A stretch of DNA of 64,000 bases. Source: Lentisphaerota bacterium. GTDB taxonomy: Bacteria; Verrucomicrobiota; Lentisphaeria; Victivallales; Victivallaceae. Under the pieces are notes generated by a model. That model made no database searches. It was not told where the DNA came from and worked only from the letters and a program-made list of their open reading frames with translations. Position numbers and translations under genes: made by a program. The stretch covers positions 1-64,000 of the forward strand of contig SUWL01000002.1 of the NCBI GenBank assembly GCA_015061495.1, written 5' to 3'. This document shows positions 17,721-25,852 of this stretch, piece after piece (positions within the stretch are counted from its first letter, which is position 1; the number at the start of each line of letters is the position of its first letter).

Positions 17721-18893
17721 ATGAAAGAAAAAATCTTAAAACTTAACGATATAAAAAACACAAACCTGCAGACAGTTCTGGAAATACTGCTGCATTCGGA
17801 TGGTCTATCGCGTACTGAAATCTCCAGAAAAACTGGTTGTGGCAATACAACTGTCACACGTGCGGTGAAGGAATTGCTCAAACGCGGGATATTGATTCCA
17901 GGTGAAAAAATCGTGCAACAGCACGGCCGTCCGCAACAGACTTTGAAATTTAATCCGGCAGGTCCTTCGCTGATCGGGATTTCTCTGGAAGCCGAACGGA
18001 TCAACGGCGTAGTGACGGATCTGCGTGGGGAGGTTCGCGAACGTAAGGAGGTGATTTTCCGCCAGAGTCCGAGCCGCAAAGAGTTCCTCGCAGCCGTTTC
18101 GCTGGTGATTCGGGCTTTGAAAGAGAAGACAAAAGGGCGCTTTGTGGGAATCGGAGCTGCCGCTTACGGCAGTTACAGCGGACCGAAATTCAAACTGGAA
18201 AATGCGGCCGCCCTGCCGGTGCTCAATGGGTTTGAGCTCAAACCTTTTCTGGATTGTGAAGCGGAATGCGAAGTTACTATTTGCGGTCATATGGCAGCAA
18301 AAATGGCTTTTTTGACACGGATGTTTCCTCAATTCAATACAGGGGCGGTCATGCTGATTTCATCTGGCAGCGGCATCGGTTCCCTGATTTCCGAGCAAGG
18401 ACGTTTTCTCTTTGTCCGGAACAATCAAAGCGGCGAATTCGGTCATACGATCAGTGTCCCTGACGGCATTCCGTGCGGTTGCGGACGGTGCGGTTGTCTG
18501 GAAACAGTGGCATCAATTCGGTCTTTGCTGCAAAACTGCCGAACGAGTCTTGGTAAACCCGATTTAAGTTTTGAAAATTTGTGTTGTCTTTTTCAAAGCG
18601 GCGATTCACGGACAGTCCGCGAAGTCAAAGTGGCGGCGTCCTTTTTAGGTATGGCAATTGCCAATCAGCTTAATAGTTATCCGATGGATCAACTGATCAT
18701 CACCGGACGGATGCTTGAACTGGGAAATGATTTTCAGTCCATGCTGGAGGAGAAGATCAATTACATGGTATTCCCTGCTGTGAAATCCGGCTTGTCTATG
18801 CATTTTATTCGATCAGATTATGACAATTCCCTGGCCAGAGGAGCTGCGATTTTTGCTGAACGTACCGCCGATGTGCTTTGTTCTGTTGATTGA
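17721..18893 (+). CDS. ROK family transcriptional regulator/sugar kinase
   Basis: 390 aa: wHTH 'LSRTEISRKTGCGNTTVTRAVKELLKRGIL' and ROK 'GEFGHTISVPDGIPCGCGRCGCLETVAS'. Confidence 0.93.
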   Translation: MKEKILKLNDIKNTNLQTVLEILLHSDGLSRTEISRKTGCGNTTVTRAVKELLKRGILIPGEKIVQQHGRPQQTLKFNPAGPSLIGISLEAERINGVVTDLRGEVRERKEVIFRQSPSRKEFLAAVSLVIRALKEKTKGRFVGIGAAAYGSYSGPKFKLENAAALPVLNGFELKPFLDCEAECEVTICGHMAAKMAFLTRMFPQFNTGAVMLISSGSGIGSLISEQGRFLFVRNNQSGEFGHTISVPDGIPCGCGRCGCLETVASIRSLLQNCRTSLGKPDLSFENLCCLFQSGDSRTVREVKVAASFLGMAIANQLNSYPMDQLIITGRMLELGNDFQSMLEEKINYMVFPAVKSGLSMHFIRSDYDNSLARGAAIFAERTADVLCSVD

Positions 18894-19294
18894 CTTTTTT
18901 TGGGAAGTTAAAGACTGATGATTGACAGCATACGGTGAATGAAAGCTCAAAACAAATTAAATACAAGAATACCGTCTGTTTCAAAAGGGAAATAAATAAT
19001 TCCGCATAAATTCTGAAATCAAAAAAATTGAGTTGCATATCTCTATGGTTGGATAAGTTTACGATCAAGTATGAGCCCTGCCGATTCTATGTAAATGGCT
19101 AAAAAAATCAAAAATTTTTTATTCATTAAACATCAAGTATTTACACCTGAAAAACAGCTCAAAAACAGCTTAAAACGACAAGATTCTATCCCAAAATCAC
19201 AAAAAATACTGCTTATGCAGGCAGACAATGGAGTTTTTCCGGAGCAGCGGCTCCCCTTGCATTGTCACCAAACAACAGCAAAAAGGTATAGAAT

Positions 19295-20050
19295 ATGCTG
19301 GAAGAAAAAAACATTTTTGTCGGCGGTGTGGAATACACTGCGGATCGTAAAACCCTGATCCATTTCCCGGAAGATCTGGAAATTCAGGACTACACAGTTC
19401 CGGAAGGCACGGAAGAAATCGGGATCACGGCCTTTTTCAACTGTCAACAGCTTCACTCGGTAACTTTGCCGCAAAGTTTGCTTGAAATCAACAGCAATGC
19501 ATTTCAACAGTGCTGTAATCTGCAAGCACTGACGATTCCGGCAAATGTCAAAACGATTGCCCCTAACGCATTTCTGGATTGTCCGGCAAAACTTGTTTCA
19601 GAGAGTCCGGATTTTACCATTGACCGTTTTGGAGCGGTGGTGTGGAAAGACAAAACTTTGCTTTGCATTCCAACGGAACTTGAATATTATGAAGTCCCGG
19701 AAAATGTCATTTTCATCGGCAGCGATGTGTGTATGTTTGGCAAGTTGAGAAAAATCGTTTTGCCGGAAACCTTGCTTTCTATCGGCGACAATGCCTTTAT
19801 CGGATGTGAAAATTTGCAGTATGTTGATTTGCCGCCGACATTGCTTGAAGTCGGAAGCAACGCATTTTATATGACTGCATGCGAAGAGGAGATGCAAGCG
19901 AAATATCCATCTTTTTTCAACTCCGATCCGGTGAAGGAATATATCGCCCGAAGTATCCGCCAAGTCCGCGAAAATGGCGGCAGTTTCAAAAAAATCAATG
20001 CCGATACAGCAGAAAACGCCGACTGGCTGCGGCAGCATAGAAAAAAATGA
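19295..20050 (+). CDS. BspA-type leucine-rich repeat (LRR_5) protein
   Basis: 251 aa with repeats 'GITAFFNCQQLHSVTLPQSLLEINSNAFQQCCNLQALTIPANVKTIAPNAF', 'IGDNAFIGCENLQYVDLPPTLLEVGSNAF'. Confidence 0.9.
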   Translation: MLEEKNIFVGGVEYTADRKTLIHFPEDLEIQDYTVPEGTEEIGITAFFNCQQLHSVTLPQSLLEINSNAFQQCCNLQALTIPANVKTIAPNAFLDCPAKLVSESPDFTIDRFGAVVWKDKTLLCIPTELEYYEVPENVIFIGSDVCMFGKLRKIVLPETLLSIGDNAFIGCENLQYVDLPPTLLEVGSNAFYMTACEEEMQAKYPSFFNSDPVKEYIARSIRQVRENGGSFKKINADTAENADWLRQHRKK

Positions 20051-20066
20051 AAAAGAGGAAAATCAA

Positions 20067-21173
20067 ATGAATAAAAATCACTGTGCCGATTGCGGCGATG
20101 AAAATGCCGACATCAAATTCAAAGATAAATTTTACTGCAAATGCTGTGCAAACTTCCTGGTGGCAAAACTGAAACGGCAATATTATGCCGGGATGAAAAA
20201 ACTCGGTTGGGAAATTCAGGATCTCTGGGAGCAGCTCCGTGATCCGGCTGATTTATGGACCGGTGATGCAGAATCTTTCCTTGAAGCAGATGAGATAAAG
20301 CATTATCAGCACGAGGATATGGCACTTTATTACCGTTCCCCTGATGCCCAAACTATGCTGCGGGCGTTTGTCAGAAAAAAACTTGACGGCGACATCCGGA
20401 ACTTTAAGGAATTTGACTTTGAAACTCTGAAATATGATGAACTTTTCGGCTGTATCAATCCGCAGAAATTTGACTGTGATAATACCTATATCATCCGGGC
20501 GGTTTATGTTCTGCTTTGGAGCAAAGTTTTTCCGGATATGACCGACTGGCGGGAAATCGGTACCGGCAAATGTTACCGGGGGGACACCATCCACACATTT
20601 CACACCATTTTCGGCAGACCAAATCCGGAAAAACCGGGGCATTTTTACGGAATCGACCAATTTTCACCGGACAATGCACTCTACGACCGGATCAGAAGTT
20701 TCCATAAAAAAATCTGTACACTGGGCAATTTTGTGGTTCTGCCCAATTTTACGGTCAAAAGCGGGAAAAGTTTTGCAACACTCAACACCTATCGGGGAAC
20801 AAATCATTGGCGTGATTACTTTGACCAGTTTCTGCTGGCGTTAGAACCGTGTCTGGTCAACGGCTGCAATGCGGATGAAACACTTTATAAACTCGTCCAC
20901 GAGCGTAACGGATACGCTTTTGAAAATTACAAAAGTCAGGCTGGTTTCACCCGTATGATAAAATCGTTACTGCTGGATAATTACCTTGATGCAGATGGTC
21001 ACGCAAAAAATCTTTTTGCCGATGCCAACGGCAAAGTCCGTTTCCATTGGGAAAAACCGCAGCCAAGTCGTGAACTCTATCTGCAAGGCGTAACCAATTA
21101 CCTTGACCACGCCGAAAAGATCATCTCCGACCGTTCTGACCGCATGATCGAAATGCTCAAAGAATTTTGCTGA
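20067..21173 (+). CDS. Conserved hypothetical protein with N-terminal zinc ribbon-like CxxC pair
   Basis: Start MNKNHCADCGDENADIKFKDKFYCKCCANF preceded by AAAAGAGGA; upstream extension to 19974 overlaps the LRR gene. Confidence 0.75.
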   Translation: MNKNHCADCGDENADIKFKDKFYCKCCANFLVAKLKRQYYAGMKKLGWEIQDLWEQLRDPADLWTGDAESFLEADEIKHYQHEDMALYYRSPDAQTMLRAFVRKKLDGDIRNFKEFDFETLKYDELFGCINPQKFDCDNTYIIRAVYVLLWSKVFPDMTDWREIGTGKCYRGDTIHTFHTIFGRPNPEKPGHFYGIDQFSPDNALYDRIRSFHKKICTLGNFVVLPNFTVKSGKSFATLNTYRGTNHWRDYFDQFLLALEPCLVNGCNADETLYKLVHERNGYAFENYKSQAGFTRMIKSLLLDNYLDADGHAKNLFADANGKVRFHWEKPQPSRELYLQGVTNYLDHAEKIISDRSDRMIEMLKEFC

Positions 21174-21188
21174 AAAAGGAGAAGGAAT

Positions 21189-21260
21189 GCGAGGGGAGAA
21201 AACCTTTTGTGAACAAAAGTTTCTTCTCCCCTCGCGCTCCCCTCTTTACAAAAAACTTTA
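21189..21260. repeat. Dispersed palindromic repeat (intergenic copy)
   Basis: GCGAGGGGAGAA...TTCTCCCCTCGC arms (21189-21200/21224-21235), followed by GCTCCCCTCTTTACAAAAAACTTTAAGC, similar to the units inside the pilin gene at about 54.13-54.38 kb. Confidence 0.65.
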
Positions 21261-21264
21261 AGCA

Positions 21265-21301
21265 GCAAATATGTTTTTCAAAAATTGAAAAACATATTTG
21301 C
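21265..21301. terminator. 17-bp perfect inverted repeat between convergent genes, possible bidirectional terminator
   Basis: GCAAATATGTTTTTCAA-AAA-TTGAAAAACATATTTGC between genes ending at 21173 (+) and 21311 (-). Confidence 0.65.
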
Positions 21302-21310
21302 AAGAGGTTA

Positions 21311-23401
21311 TCAACTTTTATTATCGCAAACTATTTCCTGCCATTTGAAAATTTCTTTTTTCAACCATTTCCAAACAGCAGAATCGAGATTTTTGATTTC
21401 GTCATCCAAAGTTTTTTTATCTGAAATTCTGATTTTTTCAGAAAGTGATTTGCGAAATAATTTATGTTTTATTTTTTTCGTATTTTTTTTGTCATAAATA
21501 CAAAAATCCTCATAATCATTTTCAGAAAATTGTTTGATTGTTATTAAATCTTCCTTGCGAATATTGTGGTTTTCGACTTGATAATAGCATTTTATAACAA
21601 TATCAAAAAATGGATAGGCTTTGCTCTTTAATTGTTTGGGTAAATCGGCATCGACATCTTCGTATTTATCAGTGATCAAATATCCGTCAAGCCATATATT
21701 TAATGCCAACAGACCGCCATACCAATTTTTCTCCCCATATCGGGAAGTTAATAAAGTGATACATCGTTTTTTGAAACTGCCATGTTCATGATAAACGATT
21801 TTATTATCTGTATTATCGCAAATTTCCTTTATTTTGTCGATAAAAAATTCTCTTTCAAACTTTTCACCAACTTGCGAGACACCTTTTTCCTGAAAAAGGA
21901 AATACTCGGATGTAAATAATTCAAATGCTTGCCAGGCAAGATCATATTTATCGCAGTAACATTTTATTAATTCCACAATTTCATACCAAAAAACATTGGC
22001 AAAAATCACCTTGTTCCGGGAGGTCGGTTCAAAAATATCTGTGACTTCTTTATAAGAATTCATATTGTATTTGGTCAGCAGAACCAATGCTTTGCCGTTA
22101 TCGCAATTTTCCAAAATCTCCAGATAGTTTTTCAGTTGATTATTTTGGAAATTTGCATCGATTTTCACTTCCACAATACAGATAAGTTTTTCTTCTTCAT
22201 CCTTGAGCCAAAAGGAAATATCATATTTGTATTCGAGCTTTTTTCTTCCGTTTTCCAGTTTGTAAACTGGATGTTCGGCTTTTACCAGATATGGCTTGAA
22301 TTTTTTCCGATTCTCTTCGTGAATAACGCCAATTTTCTTCAAAAATTCAAATTGAAAGTCCTCGATCTGGTTCAACAATCCGCATAAAATTTGAGTACAA
22401 TACTCTTCCGGTTTACTTATGTGTTCTATAATGTCCAAACATTCAGCAAGCCGGTTGTTCGGACGAATTACATCGTTCATTATGCTGCCGGGAATATCGC
22501 CGTTTTTTTCTTGCTCAGCTGAACAAATATTGCACCAATGCTTCCACAAATCCAGCAAAGTATTTATTTTCATCGCATCCTCTATAAACTGATTGATAAA
22601 ATTGTCCACCCATTGATGATCTTTGACGTTGCAGATCCATTCTTGAGGGATGGCTTCATAACCGTAATACGCTCCGGCGATTTGTCCGTAAACGGCGGCG
22701 ATGGAGTCGGAATCACCGCCCAAGTTTACTGCCGCCAACATTCCGTCTTTGAAATTATCGGTATTGCAGAACGCCCAGAACGCCGCATCGACAGTATCTT
22801 TTGCCCAGCCGGAATTGGGTACATCGGCACGGTCAGTATATGAAGTACTTATCCTGCTTTTTTCTCCGGATAAAGCCGCTTCAAGGGCATCGTGCAAACG
22901 CTTCATCTGCTCGCGGACAAAATTTGAATTGTGAGTCAAATCATTGATTTTGCGGCAGATATTTTCACCTTTGCCCTCTCTTTCCAGAATAAACGCCGGA
23001 GCGTAACGCATCAATGAACCGTTGCCCTGACCATCTTCGTCACCGTTGACCAGAGAACCGTTTCGGATATTTGCTATGGCATCATCGGTTGCGCCGCCGA
23101 CATCAAATGCCCAACCCTGAACGCTGGAAAGAAACCCCTCCTCGTACCAGCGGACAAAATTATTGGCAATATCGTTCAAATCAAAGTGCTTTTGCCGGAT
23201 GAAACTCTCCATAATACCAAATGCCATTGAGGAATCATCCGTCCAATAACCTTTGGGCAGATCCCGACCGTAAATGCCGACAGCCGGTTCCATTTGGTTT
23301 ATATACGGGTGGTCATCTTTTTCGCTAAACTGGATCGGGGAGCCGAGACAATCACCGGCGACCAGCCCCCAGAGCATACCTTTATACTTATTCTTTATCA
23401 A
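21311..23401 (-). CDS. ADP-ribosylglycohydrolase domain fused to a PD-(D/E)XK nuclease-like region
   Basis: 696 aa. N-term: 'GMLWGLVAGDCLGSPIQF', 'GYWTDDSSMAFGIMESF', 'NLGGDSDSIAAVYGQIAGAYYG'. C-term: 'KYDISFWLKDEEEKLICIVEVKIDANFQNNQLKNYLEIL' (D...EVK...Q). Confidence 0.85.
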   Translation of the reverse strand: MIKNKYKGMLWGLVAGDCLGSPIQFSEKDDHPYINQMEPAVGIYGRDLPKGYWTDDSSMAFGIMESFIRQKHFDLNDIANNFVRWYEEGFLSSVQGWAFDVGGATDDAIANIRNGSLVNGDEDGQGNGSLMRYAPAFILEREGKGENICRKINDLTHNSNFVREQMKRLHDALEAALSGEKSRISTSYTDRADVPNSGWAKDTVDAAFWAFCNTDNFKDGMLAAVNLGGDSDSIAAVYGQIAGAYYGYEAIPQEWICNVKDHQWVDNFINQFIEDAMKINTLLDLWKHWCNICSAEQEKNGDIPGSIMNDVIRPNNRLAECLDIIEHISKPEEYCTQILCGLLNQIEDFQFEFLKKIGVIHEENRKKFKPYLVKAEHPVYKLENGRKKLEYKYDISFWLKDEEEKLICIVEVKIDANFQNNQLKNYLEILENCDNGKALVLLTKYNMNSYKEVTDIFEPTSRNKVIFANVFWYEIVELIKCYCDKYDLAWQAFELFTSEYFLFQEKGVSQVGEKFEREFFIDKIKEICDNTDNKIVYHEHGSFKKRCITLLTSRYGEKNWYGGLLALNIWLDGYLITDKYEDVDADLPKQLKSKAYPFFDIVIKCYYQVENHNIRKEDLITIKQFSENDYEDFCIYDKKNTKKIKHKLFRKSLSEKIRISDKKTLDDEIKNLDSAVWKWLKKEIFKWQEIVCDNKS

Positions 23402-23672: not shown

Positions 23673-24032
23673 TCACTTGCTTATCGGAATATTGAGCTTT
23701 TCCCGGGCATCTTTCATTGCCCCCAGATTATGAACATTGGTATACCCCTGCTTCAACAGCTTTTCCGTTGCCATTGCTGCTTCCCGACCGCCCCGGCAAT
23801 AAACATAAACCGGAGTATCTCTGGAGGGGACAACTGTTGCAGCTTTGGTATCCACATCCGCCTGCGGCAGATTGATCGCTCCCTGCAGATATCCTTTCTG
23901 ATACTCTGTCGGAGTACGGACATCAAGCAGAACAGCATCTTTTTTCATCGTGATTTTGCACTGCCCCGGAGAACAGCATCCACTGACGGCGAGCATCATA
24001 ACGCCGCACAGCATAACGGGAAGTTTTTTCAT
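23673..24032 (-). CDS. Rhodanese-like domain lipoprotein
   Basis: 119 aa; lipobox 'LAVSGCC', 'LLDVRTPTEYQKGYLQGAINLP', active-site loop 'VYCRGGREAAMA'. Confidence 0.92.
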   Translation of the reverse strand: MKKLPVMLCGVMMLAVSGCCSPGQCKITMKKDAVLLDVRTPTEYQKGYLQGAINLPQADVDTKAATVVPSRDTPVYVYCRGGREAAMATEKLLKQGYTNVHNLGAMKDAREKLNIPISK

Positions 24033-24372: not shown

Positions 24373-24611
24373 AAAAGTCAAAATTTAATTTAAAACAAAA
24401 ATATTTCAAATATCTCCTTGCATTTTGATATTTGAAGTGATACATTAACTTTGTTCGGGGTTAAGAGGTTCCAAAGAGCCGGTCAGGAAGAGTTTGAGTA
24501 AATCTGCGGCGGCATAATTCAGTTCAGCTCTTTGCAATTGTTGAACAAATGTCAGCCGGAAATATGCGCCTTGCTGCTCCTGACCGGGTTACCGGAGATG
24601 TGAGGGAAATT

Positions 24612-25244
24612 ATGGCTATCAATTTAAAAAAGGGTCAGGCTATCAATCTTGAAAAAGATCAATTCGATCTTTCCAATGTTACGATCGGTCTGGGATGGGA
24701 TGTCGCAGAAAAAAAGGGTGGTTTTCTGTCCGGTCTGTTCTCCAAAAAACAGGCGGATTACGATTTGGACGCAATCGCTTTTATGCTGGACGAGAATGAC
24801 AAAGTCGCCAATGTCGGCAATCCGAAACTGGAAGGCGGAGATATTATATTTTTCAATAACCTGCGCCACTTCTCCGGTAACGTTTACCACACCGGGGACA
24901 ACCGCACCGGAGACGGCGATGGCGATGATGAACAGCTGGTCGTCAAATTGAACAATATGGGCAGCGAATATTCAAAAATCGTCTTCGTGGTTTCCATCTA
25001 TCAGGGCATCCAAAATCAACAGAATTTCGGTCAGGTCGAGAATGCTTTTATCCGGGCGGTCGATGCCCGCGGTCAGGAAATGTTCCGTTACGACCTCTCA
25101 CGCGATGCAGAATTCAACGGCAAATGTTCCATGATATTCGGAGAGCTTTACCGCCACAACGGTAATTGGAAATTCCGGGCGATCGGAACTCCTTATGCCA
25201 CCGACAACTTCGTGGATATTTTAAGAGAGAAATATCTTTGGTAA
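24612..25244 (+). CDS. TerD family protein
   Basis: MAINLKKGQAINLEKDQ...VTIGLGWDV...DYDLDAIAFMLDE...GDNRTGDGDGDDEQLVVKL. Probable start 24612 rather than 24549. Confidence 0.92.
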   Translation: MAINLKKGQAINLEKDQFDLSNVTIGLGWDVAEKKGGFLSGLFSKKQADYDLDAIAFMLDENDKVANVGNPKLEGGDIIFFNNLRHFSGNVYHTGDNRTGDGDGDDEQLVVKLNNMGSEYSKIVFVVSIYQGIQNQQNFGQVENAFIRAVDARGQEMFRYDLSRDAEFNGKCSMIFGELYRHNGNWKFRAIGTPYATDNFVDILREKYLW

Positions 25245-25297
25245 ACAGGATGATTTCAGAACTGTTCAAACAATAATATCAATTCAGGAGAAAAGAC

Positions 25298-25852
25298 ATG
25301 GCTATCAATCTGCAAAAAGGACAACGGGTCGCTATCGGACTGCAGCACATCACCGTCGGCTTGGGTTGGGATCCCGCCGAAAGCGGAACTGATTTCGACC
25401 TGGATGCCACCGCATGTATGCTCGGAGAAGACAAAAAGATTCCGGCTGAAAACTTTTTCGTCTATTACAACAACCCCAAATCTGCTGACGGGGCATGCGA
25501 GTCTACCGGCGATGACCGTACCGGCGGCAACAGCGAATTCGGTGATGATGAGCAGATCATCGTCGATTTGACCAAAGTTTCTCCCAAGATCAAGTCGATC
25601 GTATTCGCCGCTTCCATCTACGATGCCGATGCACGCCGCCAGAATTTCGGACAGGTACAAAATTCATACATCCGCATCTGCGATTCCGATTCCGGTGAAG
25701 AGCTCTGCAAATACGAACTTTGCGAAGACTTTTCCATCGAAACTGCCATCGAATTCGGACGGCTCTATCTCCACAATGGCGAATGGAAATTTGAAGCCAC
25801 CGGAATCGGTCACAAAGGCGGTCTGCAGAGCATCGTTGACAAATATTGCTAA
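25298..25852 (+). CDS. terD: TerD family protein
   Basis: MAINLQKGQRVAIGLQHITVGLGWDPAESGTDFDLDATACMLGE...GDDRTGGNSEFGDDEQIIVDL. Confidence 0.93.
   Translation: MAINLQKGQRVAIGLQHITVGLGWDPAESGTDFDLDATACMLGEDKKIPAENFFVYYNNPKSADGACESTGDDRTGGNSEFGDDEQIIVDLTKVSPKIKSIVFAASIYDADARRQNFGQVQNSYIRICDSDSGEELCKYELCEDFSIETAIEFGRLYLHNGEWKFEATGIGHKGGLQSIVDKYC

Follow-up and report, generated by a model that had tools for sequence, protein, structure and literature searches.

A candidate fusion of a DraG/ARH-type ADP-ribosyl hydrolase with a PDDEXK_4 endonuclease-like module in a Lentisphaerota genome

The window analysed here, 64,000 nucleotides of contig SUWL01000002.1 from a Lentisphaerota bacterium, carries a minus-strand gene that joins an ADP-ribosyl hydrolase (ARH) module to a predicted nuclease and lies convergent to a zinc-ribbon protein gene. 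The features of the locus are as follows.

19295–20050, plus strand: LRR_5 (BspA-type) protein (PF13306, 5.5e-30)
20067–21173, plus strand: zinc-ribbon protein with a DUF6994-like body, the convergent neighbour, whose homologues adjoin ARH genes elsewhere
21177–21301, no strand: pair of strong hairpins separating the convergent genes (-60.1 kcal/mol; z of -8.6 relative to shuffled sequence)
21311–23401, minus strand: fused gene in a single open frame that starts at TTG and encodes 696 aa, stop codon included in the coordinates
21314–21964, minus strand: C-terminal region past the nuclease core, residues 480–696, no Pfam match
21965–22411, minus strand: predicted PDDEXK_4 core, approximately residues 331–479 (PF14281, invariant residues, low-confidence model)
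22565–23401, minus strand: ARH/DraG ADP-ribosyl hydrolase module, approximately residues 1–279 (PF03747, conserved residues, model)
22571–22583, minus strand: internal AGAGG-5nt-ATG at codon 277, the joint, compared below with an ATGA stop/start overlap in genome G026

The frame at 21311–23401 runs through 696 codons with zero internal stops, and a GGAG Shine-Dalgarno-like motif stands 7 nt ahead of its TTG. An earlier note made from the sequence alone had proposed a one-gene fusion here, without giving the strand, and this is borne out, as is its placement of an LRR protein and a zinc-ribbon protein, both of which lie upstream. The hairpins form a probable bidirectional terminator. The nearest regulator to the fused gene is a ROK protein (17721–18893), and the adjacent rhodanese (23676–24032) looks like an exported lipoprotein. 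Two adjacent TerD-domain genes (24549–25852) lie beside the latter, before a P-type ATPase; a Ter-system reading of this pair was dropped, as only TerD genes were found nearby.

The N-terminal ~280 aa had been read as an ADP-ribosylhydrolase, which our searches uphold. The Pfam family ADP_ribosyl_GH (PF03747, curated cut-off 26.2 bits) matches the fused protein from residue 8 to ~270 with 178.4 bits (E 3.3e-52), and the motifs GYWTDDS and GGDSDS fall at residues 51–57 and 228–233. Residues D17, T54-D55-D56, N127, T156-H157, D230, and D232 are invariant across 34 aligned ARHs, so that the dinuclear metal-site aspartates (D55, D56, D230, D232) and the TH motif (T156, H157) are all present in the window ARH. 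This half is modelled by AlphaFold with a pLDDT of ~97, its top fold matches are ARH/DraG/Tri1 structures, and the best hits of a PDB sequence search were the Listeria immunity protein Lmo0067 and a Thermus ARH. Judged by the NCBIfam equivalogs, the protein stays below the cut-offs of both Tri1 (NF041672, 168 vs 490 bits) and DraG (TIGR02662, 99 vs 337 bits). The window ARH is a predicted hydrolase that would act on ADP-ribosyl adducts.

The PD-(D/E)XK core which the earlier note saw in the C-terminal half stands as far as family and motifs are concerned. PDDEXK_4 (PF14281, gathering cut-off 22.3 bits) matches residues 365–479 with 30.5 bits (E 4.4e-7), covering profile positions 58–160 of 183, and the KYDISFW...VEVK core occupies residues 392–413. 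E332, D394, E411-x-K413, and Q422 are invariant in the window and two family relatives (from G001, 418 aa, and G037, 338 aa), so all residues of the D...E-x-K active site are present. The fold is unconfirmed. AlphaFold confidence is low in the core (pLDDT ~45–60, or ~40–60 when a poor single-sequence model of this half is included), with a helix-strand-strand-strand-helix-strand order that agrees with PD-(D/E)XK; a comparison with PDB folds gave zero matches at E <= 0.001, EcoT38I coming second at 0.016, and PDB sequence searches that used the nuclease half, or a profile built from it, returned nothing useful. The low pLDDT and the lack of a significant fold match mean that the assignment rests on sequence only, and residues ~331–480 are best described as a predicted PD-(D/E)XK nuclease domain. 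A Pfam scan found no family in residues 480–696, which are in part common to the 418-aa homologue of G001. PDDEXK_4 relatives match the PADLOC candidate PDC-S26, with values up to 5e-9. The fused protein carries both domain assignments, with intact catalytic residues, in one open frame.

The two parts of the gene differ in composition, with a GC content of 48% (GC3 52%) in the ARH part vs 33% (GC3 34%) in the nuclease part. The drop sets in at about codon 270 but is gradual, and a single GC3 breakpoint fits best at codon 465, so that composition favours separate origins of the halves without marking the joint. More can be learned from G026, a member of the Lentisphaeria from another genus, in which an ARH ~87–88% identical to that of the window (87% in DNA) is encoded by a free 290-codon gene and where similarity to the window stops at the ARH end. 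The G026 gene finishes as GAGGTGTTATGA, where an ATGA holds both its stop and the start of the following gene, whereas the window joint, GAGGATGCGATGA, is one base longer and retains the SD-like AGAGG and the ATG. A start at codon 277 could give a separate 420-aa nuclease, and since the nuclease retains its own SD and ATG, a free form may be made alongside the fusion. The P-type ATPase had no full match in the six genomes compared and was therefore unusable as a divergence baseline.

The main doubt about this gene is whether the fusion is functional; it could instead have come into frame by accident, with the nuclease starting on its own, or reflect an error in the sequence. The joint would fit two independent accessory genes, formerly overlapping by ATGA, that were brought in frame by a one-base change, either natural or a sequencing or assembly error, the nuclease acting alone and without joint function. 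The retained start signals at the longer joint speak for such an origin, and so does the usual form of the relatives, which is free for both ARHs (280–290 aa) and PDDEXK_4 proteins (338–418 aa). However, the 420 codons past the joint are open, with no stop, and the changed site is no homopolymer, which makes a sequencing indel less likely. We regard this explanation as unlikely, while giving it real weight.

The adjacent genes bear on the same question. The LRR/zinc-ribbon block (19101–21277) recurs in G037 at 88% identity, and there a different PDDEXK_4 gene is found at the same end of the block and in the same orientation. In that genome LRR and zinc-ribbon form one 625-aa frame (L099, 5116–6993), which in the window is split by a seventh A in a run (7-A vs 6-A in G037), a possible case of slippage, phase variation, or sequencing error; this similar one-base difference is a further point in favour of two genes accidentally joined. 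In G060 (L038/L097) the LRR start is joined straight to the ARH start and only ~30 ARH codons are left, an apparent deletion scar with ~4 kb lost. Each half of the fusion thus has a link to the LRR/zinc-ribbon block in another genome, and this counts against a random join in assembly. An assembly chimera was considered and found less likely, given the in-frame join at the ARH end, the G037 PDDEXK_4 gene in the same place, and the G060 ARH remnant.

The fusion is known from one assembled genome. The 139 relative loci that were fetched contain 130 ARH reading frames, and no second ARH-PDDEXK case was among them; none of the phage and plasmid records covers 80% of the fused protein, and neither the full protein nor the nuclease half used as query had relatives in the scanned genome or viral contigs. 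Only one of ~33 other PDDEXK_4 loci in the phylum lies near an ARH. The survey of homologue neighbourhoods that had been suggested as a check revealed ARHs recombining with many partners, and no further fusion of this kind. A housekeeping or metabolic ADP-ribose hydrolase lying beside an unrelated, decaying or selfish nuclease, without any conflict role, would be compatible with the varied ARH neighbourhoods, which have no fixed partner, and with a nuclease half that is AT-rich and sporadic (of 388 genomes from the phylum, 5 have its subfamily, the window genome included). Yet the intact active-site residues and open frame give no visible decay, and a sporadic, mobile distribution equally fits defence genes, so we consider this improbable.

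The ARH subfamily of the window is found with PARG, SseB, and vWA partners in gut Lentisphaeria, Kiritimatiellae, and Thermoguttaceae. PARG_cat_microb is fused to ARH at two loci (L144 and L155) and adjacent to it at three (L139, L142, and L157). The fused genes (L144, 4270–6600; L155, 1675–3489) combine this macro-fold domain with ARH, i.e., two ADP-ribose erasers per chain, and at L144 a DUF1810 stands in front of the fusion. SseB is fused to ARH at L152 (156–1490) and directly ahead of it at L154 (5306–6828), in keeping with the prediction that SseB acts as a chaperone, and vWA genes lie near ARH at L140 and L149. Among more distant ARHs, partners include a DSP-phosphatase (L190 and L191) and, in other homologues, HD domains. 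That relatives' ARHs are so often fused to other modules speaks against two unrelated genes joined by accident. A separate PDDEXK_4 gene lies ~1 kb downstream of the PARG-ARH gene at L155 (an alignment of this nuclease with that of the window was discarded as misaligned), and PDDEXK_4, WYL, and ARH genes occur within ~5 kb at L276 (G206).

The zinc-ribbon neighbour appears to be DUF6994-like through its family, in which four of eight members match DUF6994 (best 7.3e-7), the window copy itself giving no match. For DUF6994 an HNH-like fold has been predicted by the Pfam authors (PMC11701544). Leaving the window out, relatives of this protein adjoin ARH genes at four of the seven loci with enough flank (L119, from the same genome as the window, L120, L121, and L125), far beyond chance if, as a rough assumption, any one locus has an ARH within 5 kb with a probability of ~0.4%. 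With the window counted in, the figure is five of eight, the set for which a binomial was computed. The DUF6994-like gene is divergent from the ARH at all four, and the ARH is fused to HD at L119, L120, and L125; an HD at L122 was left out of this count because no ARH follows it. WYL and ankyrin genes are also present at L120, and vWA and RtcB at L125. These ARHs are only 27–29% identical to that of the window, so the link is to the ARH family and not to one subfamily. Many DUF6994-like genes are located at contig ends (L123, L124, and L126–L129), which suggests repeats nearby and limits the linkage count. A profile search of viral contigs with this family gave no matches. The linkage to ARH provides genomic context for DUF6994.

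The explanation that we tentatively prefer, holding it as a whole with something less than even confidence, is that 21311–23401 encodes a real, lineage-specific chimera of a mobile DraG/ARH-type ADP-ribosyl hydrolase and a PDDEXK_4 endonuclease-like module, which would act like the ARG-centric host systems predicted against viral ADP-ribosylation (PMC9503650, section 3.8). The trigger would be a phage or toxin ADP-ribosyltransferase modifying host molecules; the ARH half would remove the adducts so formed, in which ADP-ribose is probably attached to arginine or to the phosphate ends of RNA, and the nuclease half would serve as a tethered second-line effector cutting invading or host nucleic acid. 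Plausible substrates exist, since human ARH1 strips the ADP-ribosylation and RNAylation made by T4 ModB (PMC10468400) and a bacterial ARH works on ADP-ribosylated RNA phosphate ends (PMC11833690). The fused protein would then probably represent, in a rare form contained in a single protein, a predicted bacterial defence against ADP-ribosylating viruses or toxins. As to the conflict or defence function proposed in the earlier note, its modules, motifs, and fusion hold at the sequence level, and the conflict role is supported only indirectly, by the modular ARH kin, PDC-S26, and the published systems (PMC9503650).

The same substrates open another possibility, namely that the ARH would serve chiefly to recognise nucleic acid carrying ADP-ribose, or RNAylated protein, and to bring the nuclease to it, in a type IV restriction-like manner. 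The single polypeptide with both predicted active sites intact would suit such guidance, as would the reported ARH activities on nucleic-acid ADP-ribose and RNAylated protein, but the PARG and SseB fusions of the same ARH subfamily fit simple co-processing equally well, and we judge it quite improbable. The specific version in which the ARH licenses or aims the fused nuclease as a type IV-like restriction enzyme directed at ADP-ribose marks, beside the DUF6994-like protein, seems very improbable. The chimera of eraser and second-line effector that we prefer matters because the ways in which hosts counter viral ADP-ribosylation have until now mostly been predicted, and an eraser with a predicted nuclease in one protein offers a compact test of whether such restriction endonucleases (REases) act with ARH. 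The ARH links to DUF6994-like proteins, PARG, and SseB also widen the predicted ARG-centric system.

Compared with known systems, the window ARH has the fold and metal-site residues of the DraG, Tri1, and Lmo0067 hydrolases (2woc, 6dre, and 8za7). Those enzymes work with a cognate ADP-ribosyltransferase (DraT, Tre1, or a Listeria toxin), whereas no ADP-ribosyltransferase or sirtuin is found among the scanned neighbouring genes of the window. The nuclease half has the motif layout of PF14281/PDC-S26 proteins (E, D, E-x-K, Q) and their length of ~400 aa as a partner; these are free-standing, unlike the fused window protein, and the nearest relative found is ~28–35% identical. ARG-centric systems comprise WYL/Nudix regulators (a WYL/Nudix transcription factor in >42% of them), phosphatases (in ~55%), REase effectors, and chaperones, SseB and vWA among them (PMC9503650). 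The PARG, SseB, vWA, and DSP-phosphatase partners of the ARH relatives are of a similar kind to those on this list. They have in common with the window an ARH (ARG) without a coupled ART, an effector with a (here predicted) restriction-endonuclease fold, and quickly changing partners. The window differs in that it has no adjacent WYL/Nudix regulator, phosphatase (only the rhodanese), or listed chaperone, and in having a DUF6994-like neighbour, which is unnamed in the text of PMC9503650; with regulator and phosphatase absent, we do not file the protein as a standard member. REase effectors are already listed for ARG-centric systems, and what is new here is the prediction of eraser and REase-type effector in the same polypeptide, by which the window protein resembles an ARG-centric system compressed into one chain.
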